The position numbers and the translations under genes were made by a program. The notes beneath the pieces were generated by a model. The model was not told the origin of the DNA and did no database searches. It saw only the letters and a list, made by a program, of their open reading frames with translations. Positions 4,854 through 20,653 of a stretch of DNA of 26,449 nucleotides are shown in pieces. This DNA comes from a virus, in the IMG/VR virus record IMGVR_UViG_3300042924_004685, positions 1 to 26,449 of that record, one strand, 5' to 3'. Each line of letters starts with the position of its first letter. The first letter of the stretch is position 1.

Positions 4854-5045
4854 ATGAGTAAGTTAGTTGGCTATAACGGGTTCTTTGCAGTAATAGAACC
4901 AACCAAAGATGATACAGACTTGGACATAAAGGATAAATTCATTGAGATTGCTAAGAACAATTCCATTGAGGATATTTCCGAAATGAAGTTAGAGGATATT
5001 ACCATTGAGGACTGTGAGGTAATGCCAACTAACAATGATGCATAG
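4854..5045 (+). CDS. Hypothetical 63-residue acidic protein
   Basis: This small acidic protein begins MSKLVGYNGFFAVIEPTKDD and then reads DIKDKFIEIAKNNSIEDISE. It may be one strand plus two helices. The last codons (MPTNNDA) overlap the GCCAACTAACAA box of the next promoter, so the gene end and regulatory box share bases, as also happens at 12163. No family is recognised. Confidence 0.65.
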   Translation: MSKLVGYNGFFAVIEPTKDDTDLDIKDKFIEIAKNNSIEDISEMKLEDITIEDCEVMPTNNDA

Positions 5046-5079
5046 TGCTTTGATCTTTCAGAATAATTACTTATATTTG
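5024..5079 (+). promoter_or_regulatory. Bacteroidota-type promoter with upstream box (P3), drives tRNA-Leu
   Basis: GCCAACTAACAA (5024-5035) is followed by TTTG (5049-5052), 19 bases, then TATATTTG (5072-5079). The tRNA begins 19 bases after the -7 box, so this is most likely the tRNA promoter. Confidence 0.82.
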
Positions 5080-5097
5080 TATATCAAAATTGAACAA

Positions 5098-5179
5098 GCG
5101 GATATGGTGAAATTGGCAGTCACGCCAGATTTAGAATCTGGTGGGGAAACCCGTGGGAGTTCGAGTCTCTCTATCCGCA
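5098..5179 (+). tRNA. tRNA-Leu (anticodon UAG)
   Basis: The acceptor stem GCGGATA (5098-5104) pairs with TATCCGC (5172-5178) and the discriminator is A5179. The anticodon arm is CCAGA-TTTAGAA-TCTGG, giving anticodon UAG for leucine CUN codons. A long variable arm (GGGGAAACCC) fits class II tRNA-Leu, and the T-arm loop is TTCGAGT. The CCA end is not encoded (ACA follows). Transcription should come from the promoter directly upstream. Confidence 0.95.
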
Positions 5180-5225
5180 CAAGTAACCATTAAACATTAA
5201 CTATTAACCATTAAGGACTAACGCC

Positions 5226-5576
5226 ATGTTGAAAAAATTCCTCGCCTCTATCCTCGCCCCTATTATTGCAGAAGAACTGCAGAACACAATCGTAAGAATG
5301 GAAGACATTGAACGCGGTATCAATTCATCCCTTGCAGATATAAAGGATGATATGGATGATATTCGCCGTAATGTAGATGACATTGATGCATACAATCTCG
5401 GTAGTAACATTGCTGACTATATTAGTATTGATGAAAGGTCTATTGCCCGTGAGATTGCTGACAATATGGATGATGCCAATTCTGATAATTGGAATGATTT
5501 ATGGTCATCGTTTACCAAGTTAGAACAAAAGATGGATAGCTTGGTATTGTTGTTGGGTAATCAAAACAATCAATAA
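5226..5576 (+). CDS. Coiled-coil-like protein, 116 residues
   Basis: The N-terminus MLKKFLASILAPIIAEELQN forms an amphipathic, hydrophobic helix that might touch a membrane. It is followed by acidic heptad-like helices (RMEDIERGINSSLADIKDDM, DDIRRNVDDIDAYN) and a last helix (WSSFTKLEQKMDSLVLLLG). The pattern suggests an elongated coiled-coil oligomer. AAGGA precedes the start. No homologous family is recognised. It follows tRNA-Leu and may share its transcript. Confidence 0.72.
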   Translation: MLKKFLASILAPIIAEELQNTIVRMEDIERGINSSLADIKDDMDDIRRNVDDIDAYNLGSNIADYISIDERSIAREIADNMDDANSDNWNDLWSSFTKLEQKMDSLVLLLGNQNNQ

Positions 5577-5598
5577 ATTTATTTTAGTTACCGAAGGA
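5577..5598 (+). promoter_or_regulatory. T-rich/TACCG/GGA leader, copy 10
   Basis: TTATTTTAGTTACCGAAGGA lies 9 bases before the GTG start at 5608. Confidence 0.6.
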
Positions 5599-5607
5599 AA
5601 CATAACC

Positions 5608-5865
5608 GTGAACAGAACTATAAAGGATTTCATTACGAATAACTCTATGCACCTGTTTCTCGGTTATGCTGTCCCCGGTTCCTTGGCAGACCGTTATGTT
5701 TCCTACATGGGAAAGAACTACGAGAAGATGGCGGACAGAAAAAGACAGAACACGATAAACTATTTCAATGATGATGGTGAACATATTGCAACCATTGTCC
5801 GTGATAGTCAAGGCATTTTCAAAATGTATTTCGATGATATTACAATAATTCAAATTGAGGAATAA
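5608..5865 (+). CDS. Hypothetical 85-residue protein, GTG start
   Basis: The GTG start is supported by the repeated leader with its GGA. The product (N-terminal NRTIKDFITNNSMHLFLGY) has a helical first half with a basic stretch (EKMADRKRQNTINYF) and a second half that looks like a four-strand sheet (DGEHIATIVRDSQGIFKMYF). It has no membrane segment. It stops 5 bases before the next ATG, indicating co-translation with the 5871 gene. Function unknown. Confidence 0.7.
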   Translation: MNRTIKDFITNNSMHLFLGYAVPGSLADRYVSYMGKNYEKMADRKRQNTINYFNDDGEHIATIVRDSQGIFKMYFDDITIIQIEE

Positions 5866-5870
5866 CAACC

Positions 5871-6410
5871 ATGGGTCAATACTATAAGGCCATAATCCTT
5901 GAAGATAAAGACACAGACGATGCACCGGAAGTTATCGCCGGTTGTCTGGAGTCTTGGACATACAATAACGGTGCAAAGTTGATGGAACATTCTTGGATTG
6001 GTAATGAGTTTGTTGAGAGAGTAGAAGCAAAACTTATCAATCAATACGATGGTAGAAGAATAGTTTGGGCTGGTGACTATGCCGATCCAGAACCAAATAC
6101 AGAAGAAAACTTATACGATATGACAACAGAATTTCATAACTACCATATTGCGAAACCTACACAAACATTTCGGTATATCATTAACCATACCATGAAACAG
6201 TATGTTGATAAGGAAAGAGTTTTCCCGGATAAAGATGGTTGGAAGATACACCCATTGCCACTACTTACTTGTGAAGGAAACGGCAGAGGCGGTGGAGACT
6301 ACGGTGGAATAGATAGGTATTTAGTTGGTCTTTGGGCAAGAAATAGAATATCAGTTTCAAATGATATACCAGACGGTTATGAAGAATTACTTTTTACATT
6401 ACACGAATAA
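5871..6410 (+). CDS. Conserved phage hypothetical with GAKLMEHSWIGN motif
   Basis: The protein is 179 residues. It begins MGQYYKAIILEDKD and contains GAKLMEHSWIGNEFVERVEA, followed by a strand with W-A-G-D-Y-A-D. From memory, this combination (an MGQYYK-type start, a GAKLMEHS block, and WAGDYAD) marks a conserved family of uncharacterised proteins in phages and some bacteria. The middle contains many His and Asp residues (HNYHIAK, HPLPLLTCEGNGRGGGDYGG), which could bind metal, but no enzyme is established. It starts 5 bases after the previous stop and ends 12 bases before the ArdA-like gene, forming a small operon. Confidence 0.8.
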   Translation: MGQYYKAIILEDKDTDDAPEVIAGCLESWTYNNGAKLMEHSWIGNEFVERVEAKLINQYDGRRIVWAGDYADPEPNTEENLYDMTTEFHNYHIAKPTQTFRYIINHTMKQYVDKERVFPDKDGWKIHPLPLLTCEGNGRGGGDYGGIDRYLVGLWARNRISVSNDIPDGYEELLFTLHE

Positions 6411-6422
6411 AGGATAACAACC

Positions 6423-6944
6423 ATGAGTTACAAACAAACATTTGAAATTAGTGTAGACATTAGTTGGGATGGTGGTGAAACAACCGAAAAGGTTATCATT
6501 GATGACGCCACCTATGATTACGATGACATTGTATCAGCTGCATTTGATGCAGCCGAAGATGTTGGTGTATTTGAAAACTTTGAAGATATAACACAAGAAG
6601 ATTGTGATTTTGAAATTCATATAGACGATGGTGATTTAGAAGATCTTGGTATATCCAATTCAGATGAACTGTATGAGTTTTGTGACATATTCTATTCCGA
6701 TAATAATTCCTACGAGATAGAGGTATTTCAGGCGGCATACGAATGTGATATTCCATTCGAGGATATTGATGAAATGTATCAAGGTCAATGGGATGATGAC
6801 GAGACATTTGTTATGCGTCTGTTAGAAGATACTGGAATGATTCCAAGTGATTTGCCAAACTTCATTTATATTGATTGGGAAAGAACTGCGGAAAATGTTA
6901 TGGATGACTATGTTGAACATCGTGGTCATTATTTTAGACAGTAA
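6423..6944 (+). CDS. ArdA-like antirestriction protein (DNA mimic)
   Basis: The protein is 173 residues and extremely acidic throughout. The C-terminal half matches the ArdA layout I know: a helix followed by FEDIDEMYQGQWDDDETFVM, then a strand-helix with IYIDWERTAENVMDDYVEHR and a terminal G-H-Y-F. ArdA proteins are about 165-170 residues, form elongated acidic dimers that mimic bent B-DNA, and block type I restriction-modification enzymes. The N-terminal third (FEISVDISWDGGETTEKVII) departs from typical ArdA, so it may be a divergent or fused form. The location downstream of other small early genes fits a counter-defence role. Confidence 0.72.
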   Translation: MSYKQTFEISVDISWDGGETTEKVIIDDATYDYDDIVSAAFDAAEDVGVFENFEDITQEDCDFEIHIDDGDLEDLGISNSDELYEFCDIFYSDNNSYEIEVFQAAYECDIPFEDIDEMYQGQWDDDETFVMRLLEDTGMIPSDLPNFIYIDWERTAENVMDDYVEHRGHYFRQ

Positions 6945-6965
6945 TTATTTTAGATACCGAGTGGA
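6944..6965 (+). promoter_or_regulatory. T-rich/TACCG/GGA leader, copy 11, ahead of a tRNA-like gene
   Basis: TTATTTTAGATACCGAGTGGA starts at the ArdA-like stop. It precedes no clear protein gene; the next feature is the tRNA-like RNA at 7000. A GTGG/CCAC hairpin follows at 6961-6975. Confidence 0.45.
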
Positions 6966-6999
6966 TGGTGAACCACTCAATAGATAAAAAATGCCGGTT

Positions 7000-7109
7000 A
7001 GTTAGGTGGCGTAATTGGTTAAACGCATGGACAGTAGGGTGAGATAGAATCAACCCCGGCTTATGAAAGTGGCTCCCAAACTTTGCAGGTTCAAGTCCTG
7101 CCCTAACTA
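7000..7109 (+). tRNA. tRNA-like RNA with oversized, non-canonical centre
   Basis: Three quarters of a tRNA are clear. Acceptor AGTTAGG (7000-7006) pairs with CCTAACT (7102-7108). The D-arm is GCGT-loop with GG-ACGC (7009-7026). The T-arm is GCAGG-TTCAAGT-CCTGC (7085-7101), and the discriminator is A7109. The D-arm resembles class II tRNA-Leu. Between D-arm and T-arm there are 58 bases instead of about 23-40. No standard 5-bp anticodon stem with 7-base loop is visible; instead GGGT/ACCC (7037-7056) and AAAGT/ACTTT (7066-7084) can form. It may be a decayed tRNA, a tRNA carrying an insertion, or a new tRNA-like RNA. I cannot name an amino acid. Confidence 0.55.
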
Positions 7110-7137
7110 CACTTTCGGTGATGTTGAAGCTGATAGT

Positions 7138-7174
7138 ATCGGCATCAAACCGATGACGGCTCGGAAAGACGAGC
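7138..7174 (+). other. Tandem hairpins after the tRNA-like RNA
   Basis: ATCGG-CATCAAA-CCGAT (7138-7154) and GCTCG-GAAAGA-CGAGC (7159-7174) are adjacent perfect 5-bp hairpins between the tRNA-like 3' end and the leader of the 7207 gene. They could be a processing signal or part of a larger RNA. Confidence 0.45.
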
Positions 7175-7177
7175 TAA

Positions 7178-7199
7178 TTTATTTTTACTTACCAAAGGA
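7178..7199 (+). promoter_or_regulatory. T-rich/TACC/GGA leader, copy 12
   Basis: TTTATTTTTACTTACCAAAGGA lies 7 bases before the ATG at 7207 and decides that start over an in-frame codon at 7063 inside the tRNA-like gene. Confidence 0.55.
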
Positions 7200-7206
7200 T
7201 TTAGTT

Positions 7207-7752
7207 ATGAAAAAGATAATCATGTTATTTATTGCCATCCTATTTGCAACACCGATGTTTTCCCAAACAGATGAATTGACATTAACCGGTTGGAGACAGA
7301 ACTTTGTAACATCATACTGTGATGAATACGATATGATGGTTGGCGATAAGGGATATTGGATTCTTCGATGGGGAACATCCAGAGAAGCAATTCGTGGTGC
7401 TCTAACACGAGACGGTTTTACATACACAGAAACAGACACTACAATTTCGTGGTATCAAAACTCAATATACAAATGTGAGTTACAATTCAATGCGAATCAG
7501 AAAGTGAATAGAACAATGTTTGTAGTTTCCGTTCCAATCAGAAACGGTATCGAAATCAGTAACAGTCTCAAAAAGAAATTTGATGCAGTCTATGGCATTC
7601 CTGGTAAATTCAAAATGATTGGTGCATCATCATCTTATTCTTGGTTGGACAATCGTTGTGGTTTGAAACCAATATATTCATTGCAGGCCAATACTGTAAT
7701 TGAAGGTGGTCAATATATCGTGACAGTTATTGCATCAAGAATTGGCGAGTAA
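7207..7752 (+). CDS. Exported hypothetical protein with signal peptide
   Basis: The 181-residue product begins with a classical signal peptide, MKKIIMLFIAILFATPMFSQ, with likely cleavage after FS and Gln at +1, a pattern common in Bacteroidota secreted proteins. The mature part has WGTSREAIRGALTRDGF near residue 50, followed by beta strands and aromatic residues, and resembles small periplasmic beta-sheet proteins of that phylum. Two cysteines (about C29 and C76) and one at C156 could allow a disulphide. I do not know its role; a phage protein sent to the periplasm could affect superinfection, lysis timing or envelope stress. Start 7207 is set by the GGA leader. Confidence 0.75.
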   Translation: MKKIIMLFIAILFATPMFSQTDELTLTGWRQNFVTSYCDEYDMMVGDKGYWILRWGTSREAIRGALTRDGFTYTETDTTISWYQNSIYKCELQFNANQKVNRTMFVVSVPIRNGIEISNSLKKKFDAVYGIPGKFKMIGASSSYSWLDNRCGLKPIYSLQANTVIEGGQYIVTVIASRIGE

Positions 7753-7758
7753 CATTTA

Positions 7759-8108
7759 GGGGGCGAAATGGCCTCGATTGGTTACAACGAACAAACGGAG
7801 CATACCGAGCTACGCTGGTGGAGCTCGTTAATACAACTGGCGAAAACATAAGTGGCAACACTACATCTTACGCATTGGCTGCTTAAGCCAATGCCGTTCA
7901 TCTAATACCACAACCCTTTGGGATTGGAATGGGCGTTGCAAATTAGGGTTATACTATATCGTTGAAACGCCGGCATAGTGAACAACAGTTTCTCGTAGTG
8001 CAGAGGATTGTCAATGTTCCAAATCACTATTAAATAAAAACATAGACTATGTATGTAGCGCCTTTGGTCAATGTGAGCAAGACGCGGGTTCGACTCCCGC
8101 CGCCTCCA
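7759..8108 (+). ncRNA. ssrA: Transfer-messenger RNA (tmRNA)
   Basis: This is a complete 350-base tmRNA. The 5' acceptor GGGGGCG (7759-7765) pairs with CGCCTCC (8101-8107) and the discriminator is A8108. The T-arm is GCGGG-TTCGACT-CCCGC near the 3' end. The mRNA-like part starts at the resume codon GGC (7839) and encodes GENISGNTTSYALAA with stop TAA at 7884-7886. The stop lies in the loop of hairpin GCATTGGCT/AGCCAATGC, as in other tmRNAs. Upstream, CGAGCT/AGCTCG forms the expected pseudoknot-region hairpin. tmRNA rescues stalled ribosomes and tags products for proteolysis. Here the gene sits among phage genes, 6 bases after the exported-protein gene. CCA is not encoded. Confidence 0.96.
7839..7886 (+). 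other. tmRNA tag-peptide reading frame
   Basis: Fifteen sense codons give GENISGNTTSYALAA, then TAA. The ALAA end is the canonical ClpXP-type degron, and the GEN beginning resembles Bacteroidota tags. It is longer than the short tags I recall from that phylum. Confidence 0.93.
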
Positions 8109-8131
8109 CAAATTTATTTTAAGGTTATGGT

Positions 8132-8359
8132 ATGAACACAGAAGTTGCTGAACATAATGGAATAATATCCATACATGATTACCTACAATGTATATGGGAA
8201 AACTCAAACAATTTCCGTAGAACTTGGAAACTCATTCATGTATCGGATATGAACTACTATTTTCGTGATACCGGCGATGGTAGGGTTGGCATAATGAATA
8301 AGGACAAGTTGCACAGTCAGATTGAGACTGGCTACTATGCCGTAATCAAACCACAATAA
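8132..8359 (+). CDS. Hypothetical 75-residue protein
   Basis: This small soluble protein begins MNTEVAEHNGIISIHDYLQC, with a middle helix (ENSNNFRRTWKLIHVSDMNY) and a C-terminal half containing a D-T-G-D-G turn. AAGG lies upstream (TTTATTTTAAGG), a shortened form of the repeated leader without TACCG. It is the first gene after the tmRNA and ends just before a strong hairpin terminator. No family is recognised. Confidence 0.68.
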   Translation: MNTEVAEHNGIISIHDYLQCIWENSNNFRRTWKLIHVSDMNYYFRDTGDGRVGIMNKDKLHSQIETGYYAVIKPQ

Positions 8360-8364
8360 AACGA

Positions 8365-8385
8365 GGTATGACATTTTGTCATACC
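8365..8385 (+). terminator. Perfect hairpin after the 8132 gene
   Basis: GGTATGACA-TTT-TGTCATACC forms a perfect 9-bp stem right after the stop. Only a weak T run follows (TTCAT), so it is either a weak intrinsic terminator or an mRNA-end stabiliser. Confidence 0.55.
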
Positions 8386-8463
8386 TTCATAACCCCTTGA
8401 AAATAAAAGACTTACACCCGGCCGTAACTCCTTACAAATCAACGACTTACATAGCCCTCCTTA

Positions 8464-8480
8464 TTTAGATTCAGTCTAAA
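8464..8480 (+). other. Short AT hairpin in spacer 8360-8562
   Basis: TTTAGA-TTCAG-TCTAAA is the only other structure in this roughly 200-base spacer, which contains no gene. It lies upstream of promoter P4. Confidence 0.35.
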
Positions 8481-8508
8481 TATGAATTTCATCCCCATAA
8501 AATAATGC

Positions 8509-8539
8509 TTTGATCTTTCATGCCTATGCCTTATATTTG
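8509..8539 (+). promoter_or_regulatory. Bacteroidota-type promoter (P4)
   Basis: TTTG (8509-8512), 19 bases, then TATATTTG (8532-8539). The core AATAATGCTTTGATCTT and downstream GTAATGTAAGTTAAGG recur at P5 and P6. Confidence 0.82.
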
Positions 8540-8562
8540 TAATGTAAGTTAAGGTTAATGAT

Positions 8563-8778
8563 ATGAAACAATGTATGAAATTCTTTCCGTTGGCAATAAC
8601 AGTAGGCGTATTGGTGCTTCTTGGTCTAAGTTACCAGAAACACGAATTGCCTAACTTGTTGAACCTCAACGACTTAAACAAAAAACTCCGTGTCCTCCAA
8701 ACTACTTCTCGTAAGTCATTGGTAGATAATGAGTTAGCAGAACAGTTAGTAGAACAAAAAAATTATTCGTCAAAGTAA
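8563..8778 (+). CDS. Small single-span membrane-anchored protein
   Basis: The 71-residue product has a hydrophobic segment (FFPLAITVGVLVLLGLSYQ, about residues 7-25) and a soluble tail (LNDLNKKLRVLQTTSRKSLV, then ELAEQLVEQKNYSSK). MKQCMK before the segment is basic, predicting the N-terminus inside and the tail in the periplasm. It could equally be an uncleaved signal anchor. No family is recognised. AAGG in the conserved post-promoter sequence supplies the ribosome binding site, and the last codons run into promoter P5. Confidence 0.68.
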   Translation: MKQCMKFFPLAITVGVLVLLGLSYQKHELPNLLNLNDLNKKLRVLQTTSRKSLVDNELAEQLVEQKNYSSK

Positions 8779-8786
8779 AATAATGC

Positions 8787-8817
8787 TTTGATCTTACAAA
8801 AAAATGCCTTATATTTG
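8787..8817 (+). promoter_or_regulatory. Bacteroidota-type promoter (P5)
   Basis: TTTG (8787-8790), 19 bases, then TATATTTG (8810-8817). The flanks are nearly identical to P4 (CAAAGTAAAATAATGC upstream, GTAATGTAAGTTAAG downstream). Confidence 0.82.
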
Positions 8818-8851
8818 TAATGTAAGTTAAGAACAACCAAAGGAAACAACC

Positions 8852-9076
8852 ATGTTATTCTCAAAAACACTAACCGATAAACTATCAGATGCCTGGTCTG
8901 ACTATTCAAAGCTCATCCGTGAAAGAGAAACCCGCGTCAATCCAATGACATTAGAGGAATCAATGGACTATATGAACCGCAAGGAATCAGTCTTGTATCG
9001 TATTGCTCTCTTGTCCGAAGCCGTGGACATGGTAAAAAATGGTGCAGGTATTCCATCTTCAAAAATAATGCTTTGA
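8852..9076 (+). CDS. Hypothetical 74-residue helical protein
   Basis: The product begins MLFSKTLTDKLSDAWSDYSK and appears to be two helices: one charged (LIRERETRVNPMTLEESMDY) and one rich in Ala/Leu (VLYRIALLSEAVDMVKNGAG). A two-helix antiparallel hairpin is plausible. AAAGGAAACAACC precedes the ATG. The last codons overlap the -33 region of promoter P6, so stop and promoter are interlocked. The function is unknown. Confidence 0.7.
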   Translation: MLFSKTLTDKLSDAWSDYSKLIRERETRVNPMTLEESMDYMNRKESVLYRIALLSEAVDMVKNGAGIPSSKIML

Positions 9077-9102
9077 TCTTATCTGAAAATTCCGTATATT
9101 TG
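9072..9102 (+). promoter_or_regulatory. Bacteroidota-type promoter (P6)
   Basis: TTTG (9072-9075), 19 bases, then TATATTTG (9095-9102). It belongs to the P4/P5 subtype, followed by GTAAAGTAAGTTAAGGACA. Confidence 0.82.
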
Positions 9103-9124
9103 TAAAGTAAGTTAAGGACACAAA

Positions 9125-9247
9125 ATGAAACGCTTAAAACACATTCTCAAAGAGACTGTAATCATTACCGGTATCATCCTGTTTGTTCTCATTGCATCCA
9201 GTATTGATAGTCTCTTAGACATGGCAATGAATTATTTTAGACAATAA
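9125..9247 (+). CDS. Tiny single-span membrane protein (40 residues)
   Basis: This 40-codon frame begins MKRLKHILKETVIITGIILF with a basic N-terminus, then a hydrophobic segment to about residue 25, and ends DSLLDMAMNYFRQ. AAGGACACAAA supplies a Shine-Dalgarno sequence directly after promoter P6. Size and layout fit a small inner-membrane regulatory or toxin-like peptide, but no family is identified. The next gene follows after 18 bases. Confidence 0.62.
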   Translation: MKRLKHILKETVIITGIILFVLIASSIDSLLDMAMNYFRQ

Positions 9248-18670: not shown

Positions 18671-18958
18671 ATGCAACTCATACCTTTGTATGACGGTATT
18701 TTAATCAAACAGGCCGAGGCAGAAGAAGTTAGCACTGGAGGTATTATCATTCCAGATAGTGTAAAACAGGCACCACTAAAAGGCGAAGTCCTTGCAGTAG
18801 GTGAAGGTGCAGTTAATCACGATGGGACAATAAGACCATTACGAGTTAAAGTTGGTGATATAGTTTTGTATAGCCAATTTGCAGGAAGTGAAGTAATCGT
18901 TGATGGCGAAGAAAGATTGATGGTAAGAGAACAAGATGTTTTAGCAATTTTAAGGTAA
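18671..18958 (+). CDS. groES: GroES co-chaperonin
   Basis: The protein is 95 residues, the normal length for GroES (Hsp10). The mobile loop that contacts GroEL is present: EEVSTGGIIIPDSVKQAP (about residues 18-35). The core strands follow: GEVLAVGEG, then VGDIVLYSQFAG and the C-terminal E-x-D-V-L-A-I-L. It caps the GroEL cage to create the folding chamber. AAGGAGGTT 4 bases upstream gives strong translation. It is followed after 18 bases by groEL, the standard groES-groEL operon order. Phage copies usually serve the folding of phage structural proteins, as T4 gp31 does for the capsid. Confidence 0.95.
   Translation: MQLIPLYDGILIKQAEAEEVSTGGIIIPDSVKQAPLKGEVLAVGEGAVNHDGTIRPLRVKVGDIVLYSQFAGSEVIVDGEERLMVREQDVLAILR

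Positions 18959-20653
<1,695 letters not shown>

Follow-up and report, generated by a model that had tools for sequence, protein, structure and literature searches.

The 26,449-base IMG/VR virus fragment analysed here (the window) carries an intact one-piece tmRNA gene (ssrA) with a complete tag reading frame, which lies in a phage context, is conserved in another viral contig and is patchily present among related phages. With a probability of about 0.8, the gene encodes a functional phage tmRNA that would carry out standard trans-translation; we infer its expression, charging, host partners and benefit from the sequence. The benefit to the phage would most likely be a dose of ribosome rescue while host RNA is being replaced and mRNA is being broken by phage or host nucleases.

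Structure of the tmRNA gene

The gene was read by ARAGORN as a one-piece tmRNA (Table 1), and the Rfam covariance model RF00023 matches positions 7759–8111 with 142.7 bits (gathering score 47; E = 2.6e-56, far beyond chance), the alignment being full-length over model positions 1–374 of 374. Since the model fits and the tag stop sits in the P5 loop, the description in an earlier note on this DNA, of a complete tmRNA with acceptor stem, T-arm and a stop codon in a hairpin loop, was confirmed. The acceptor stem (GGGGGCG/CGCCUCC) contains the alanine identity pair G3–U70 and is followed by the discriminator A8108; this pair and a discriminator A are what alanyl-tRNA synthetase reads. The CCA positions read C-A-A, and a complete CCA is thus not encoded. 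All four pseudoknots, PK1 to PK4, are present in the helices drawn on the window sequence and compared with a single homologue, and stem 2 of PK1 is formed by CGCUGGU (7813–7819) and ACUGGCG (7836–7842).

The permuted two-piece form (RF04321) was ruled out by ARAGORN and Rfam, the gene order being that of a one-piece tmRNA. In addition, no Rfam riboswitch match was found in the window.

Table 1. Features of the tmRNA gene and its surroundings in the window (G012 is the viral contig with the homologous tmRNA; G007, G008 and G011 are further relatives).
Feature	Position	Strand	Basis or remark
tmRNA gene (ssrA), one-piece	7759..8109 (Rfam end 8111, over CCA positions)	+	ARAGORN, RF00023, G012 homologue
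Acceptor stem, 5' strand GGGGGCG, carries G3	7759..7765	+	pairs with 8101–8107
Acceptor stem, 3' strand CGCCTCC, with U70; discriminator A8108 next	8101..8107	+	sequence and pairing
T-arm, GCGGG-TTCGACT-CCCGC, standard	8084..8100	+	RF00023 and helix drawing
Pseudoknot PK1: stem 1 7807–7811 with 7822–7826, stem 2 7813–7819 with 7836–7842	7807..7842	+	every pair kept in G012
Linker of 11 nt, AAAACATAAGT; T(-5) and A(-4) are the equivalents of E. coli U85/A86	7843..7853	+	comparison with PMC2481249
Tag reading frame GNTTSYALAA (10 aa); resume codon GGC, stop TAA 7884–7886	7854..7886	+	ARAGORN; frame homologous in G012
P5 hairpin, 8 pairs (7872–7879 with 7887–7894), tag stop codon in loop	7872..7894	+	helix drawing
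PK2 7895–7950, PK3 7953–7992, PK4 7995–8030	7895..8030	+	helix drawing
Nearest Bacteroidota-type promoter element upstream of the tmRNA, TTTG...TATATTTG; precedes tRNA-Leu(tag)	5049..5079	+	
ArdA-like anti-restriction protein	6423..6944	+	phrog_14321, E = 6.3e-7; PF07275, E = 0.003, below its cut-off
180-aa ORF, ends 6 nt before the tmRNA	7210..7752	+	98% identical in G011, there without a tmRNA after it
75-aa ORF downstream of the tmRNA, marks the locus	8132..8359	+	95–99% identical in G007, G008 and G011, 75% in G012

Conservation in a second viral contig

The only orthologue found lies in the 123.5-kb viral contig G012 (locus L183, positions 455–808), where the tmRNA is 84% identical and specifies the tag GNTTSYAMAA. 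This identity stands at the upper end of that of the flanking phage genes (about 66–87%, in longer matches). In the tag frame, the two genes differ by a leucine-to-methionine replacement, one synonymous change and the stop codon, which is TAA in the window and TGA in G012. In this one pairwise comparison, based on helices that we drew on the window sequence, 60 of the 70 valid window pairs are unchanged, three are altered on one side, four are altered on both sides yet still pair, and three are broken (two in P5 and one in PK2), which leaves 67 of 70 kept. Three of the four both-sided changes fall in PK2 and PK3, and the outer pair of the T-arm, G–C in the window, has become U–G in G012, with both sides changed and pairing kept. 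This single pairwise comparison supports the reading that the RNA is under selection.

The same small 75-aa ORF lies downstream of the tmRNA in G012 as in the window. Unlike in the window, however, two N6/N4 methyltransferase genes flanking a gene for a weakly restriction-enzyme-like protein (L183 870–3346) stand between the two, directly downstream of the tmRNA.

A variable phage locus

Besides the genes in Table 1, the window encodes a ParB-like protein, an HNH endonuclease, CHAP and chitinase-like endolysins, GroES and GroEL. Relatives were recruited through a conserved 387-aa protein and share long DNA stretches with the window, Microcystis phage Mel-JY01 being a more distant relative. Close relatives share the genes flanking the tmRNA, which bears out the earlier claim that the tmRNA is phage-encoded and lies among phage genes. 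Other searches yielded no further relatives: a whole-window megablast against phage records gave no match, a query of viral contigs with the ParB-like protein gave no relative, and a strict resume-plus-tag pattern in viral contigs, which would miss G012 (AMAA, TGA), found no additional ones. In the search for a host tmRNA, a tRNA-Leu pattern scan of genome contigs gave no match and a plasmid search gave T-arm matches only.

The content of the site varies among relatives, which marks the tmRNA as an accessory gene; across them, the site holds an anti-restriction gene, a tRNA-like RNA, restriction-modification-like genes or the tmRNA. In G011, the 180-aa ORF is followed directly by the 75-aa ORF, so that exactly the tmRNA is absent, G007 is without both the 180-aa ORF and the tmRNA, and G008 has a shorter tRNA-like sequence instead. 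RF00023 scored above its cut-off in one of 23 further relatives, many of which are fragments that possibly do not cover the locus. The ArdA-like protein belongs to the variable locus as well, and several relatives possess it at 41–91% identity. Since relatives without the tmRNA persist, the gene is dispensable.

This patchy presence in close relatives, at a locus that elsewhere contains the ArdA-like gene, tRNA-like RNAs, or two methyltransferases with a weak restriction-enzyme match, could also point to a benefit in counter-defence, in which the tmRNA frees ribosomes when mRNA-cleaving toxins or anticodon nucleases yield non-stop mRNAs, or when the host tmRNA is lost or attacked. The tmRNA would then be an interchangeable item of a counter-defence locus, in which ArdA-like and restriction-modification-like genes, tRNA-like RNAs and the tmRNA occupy the same site, and would protect against RNA-cleaving defences via the freed ribosomes. 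Such a role is compatible with the standard trans-translation mechanism and differs from dose support in the benefit. It is nevertheless a tentative and rather unlikely reading, in that the same sequence features would be expected from dose support during infection, and the patchy presence also fits a neutral passenger.

A neutral passenger or a remnant of integration at the host ssrA, unused by the phage, would agree with the close relatives that are without the tmRNA, and host ssrA genes are prophage integration sites, ssrA fragments having been found in prophages (PMC9004378). However, this origin is improbable: the gene is complete and not a 3' fragment, no integrase family match was found among the 20 window proteins scanned, and constraint appears to act, because the homologous gene of G012, which occupies the corresponding locus, has retained most pairs and the tag frame.

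Two further observations concern the neighbourhood. A tRNA-like RNA at 7000–7109 (+) matches RF00005 with 41.9 bits and was missed by ARAGORN without the intron option; with this option, it was read as a tRNA-Tyr(gta) whose anticodon loop contains an insert of 21 nt, the anticodon arm being doubtful. It is 98–99% conserved in three relatives (L185, L188 and L189), and the variant of G008 (L186) is shorter, at about 83 nt, and has a compensated acceptor pair. The phage GroES and GroEL genes lie at 18671–20653, and the GroEL is 66% identical in the sister contig L121 and mostly 49–56% identical in the listed phage records.

Resume codon and tag

ARAGORN and the Rfam alignment agree on GGC 7854 as the resume codon, which gives a 10-residue tag. 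It is short, and its hydrophobic end ALAA is the usual degron, as the earlier note had claimed, with the stop codon UAA in the P5 loop. In the RNA, an 11-nt linker, AAAACAUAAGU, separates PK1 from GGC 7854, and its positions -5 and -4 are the frame-setting U and A. The corresponding distance in E. coli is 12 nt; there, the frame is set by the five nucleotides immediately before the resume codon, and A86 (position -4) is nearly invariant (PMC2481249). The spacing of 11 nt observed here falls within the expected range of about 10–12 nt, with the conserved A at -4.

A tag of 15 residues, GENISGNTTSYALAA, resuming at GGC 7839, had instead been proposed in the earlier note, with a longer spacer that might alter adaptor binding. 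The reading frame is open from 7839, and GGCGAAAAC resembles GEN, a tag start of Bacteroidota; however, the first five codons of this tag (GGC GAA AAC ATA AGT, 7839–7853) overlap the 3' strand of PK1 stem 2 (7836–7842) and the 11-nt linker, so that GGCG 7839–7842 is paired and the linker between PK1 and the resume codon would vanish. Both programs place the resume codon at 7854, with the U–A element upstream, and the extra codons are not kept as peptide in G012 (AAC to CTG, Asn to Leu), whereas codons 1–7 of the 10-residue tag are identical. The longer tag is thus very improbable. At 10 residues, the tag is of about the length of the roughly 9-residue Bacteroidota tags that it was said to exceed, and the proposed effect of seven additional spacer residues on adaptor binding therefore loses its basis. 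Our search found no literature on Bacteroidota tag sequences.

Host and transcription

That the stretch is host bacterial DNA wrongly binned as viral is suggested only by the fact that tmRNA genes are normally bacterial and has a negligible probability, as the flanking genes are common to several other viral contigs, phage endolysins, an HNH endonuclease, a ParB-like protein and a phage GroEL lie nearby, and the relatives show the stretch to be phage DNA. The host is probably a Bacteroidota bacterium because of repeated TTTG-N17-21-TA(C/T)(A/G)TTTG elements, a pattern established as the Bacteroidota promoter consensus. Six such elements occur on the + strand, whereas 200 dinucleotide shuffles gave 0.17 on average; the shuffle figure is somewhat favourable to the pattern, which was tightened after the repeats had been seen. 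Strongly similar intergenic promoter-like elements of this type lie at 983, 1301, 5049, 8509, 8787, 9072, 12189 and 13782, and the Bacteroidota context assumed earlier thus appears to be right.

Because no Bacteroidota-type promoter was found between the 5049 element and the tmRNA, the gene may be transcribed within a longer RNA that begins ahead of tRNA-Leu(tag). Between the tRNA-like RNA and the 180-aa ORF lies a weak terminator-like hairpin (7158–7175), which could speak against such a transcript. The counts of sigma-70 promoters and terminators in 4900–9200 equal those in shuffles and were not used as evidence for the mechanism.

Proposed mechanism

In the proposed pathway of standard trans-translation, the tmRNA would be transcribed during infection, perhaps within the longer transcript, and processed by host RNase P and 3' nucleases. 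A host CCA-adding enzyme would have to supply the CCA, because these positions read otherwise in the gene. The RNA may then be charged with alanine via G3–U70, and host SmpB and EF-Tu could carry it to ribosomes stalled on broken mRNAs. These ribosomes would resume at GGC 7854, append alanine and GNTTSYALAA, stop at TAA and be released, and the tagged product may be degraded by host ClpXP-type proteases. Host SmpB is presumed because a search of 12 records from this and other phages, most of which, the window included, are fragments, found no match to SmpB (PF01668). Some huge phages possess an SmpB of their own, which is not a required feature (PMC7162821).

Comparison with known phage tmRNAs

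As the earlier note had stated, phage tmRNAs are known, with mycobacteriophages and Bacillus phage G among the listed carriers (PMC4131195). Its view that they are rare was wrong: a survey reported tmRNAs in 402 of 18,146 phage genomes, or 2.3% (PMC9004378), and a 29-nt piece of the window tmRNA recurs in viral contigs, in at least 119 stretches, most of which are read as tmRNAs by ARAGORN. Mycobacterium phages Bxz1 and Wildcat, Bacillus phage G (PMC4131195) and Streptomyces phages likewise carry a tmRNA gene in a tailed-phage genome, and Wildcat expresses its tmRNA strongly during the lytic cycle (PMC7474061). The present gene differs from these in lineage and tag, with GNTTSYALAA in place of the ANSKFAFALAA or ANSNVASAYALAA of Streptomyces phages and with promoters of the Bacteroidota type. 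The ssrA of Bacteroidota hosts is a one-piece gene whose tag starts with G and ends in ALAA, and the window tmRNA shares all three traits. The Methylophilales phage Melnitz likewise carries a complete tmRNA (ssrA), with a presumed role in supporting or redirecting trans-translation; in contrast to the one-piece window tmRNA, this one is of the permuted two-piece form and follows a glutamine riboswitch (PMC9004378).

Permuted two-piece tmRNAs were also observed in two crAss-like phages, Bohxovirus sp. 'endotrachealis' (L125, PV686213.1) and cr130_1 (L124, NC_055901.1), with RF04321 scores of 70.6 and 54.4 bits (gathering score 47) and matches at L137 1538–1727 and L139 1536–1804. The Bohxovirus tmRNA is not annotated in its record, and the tag of cr130_1, DNYNVVDYTHVA, does not end in LAA.

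Significance

The window tmRNA is genuine but fairly ordinary, since phage tmRNAs are already known and its tag is of ordinary length. It adds one-piece tmRNAs to a Bacteroidota-type phage lineage distantly related to Microcystis phage Mel-JY01. Close relatives with and without the gene, which have nearly the same neighbouring ORFs, would provide a natural pair for tests of its benefit if they can be isolated.
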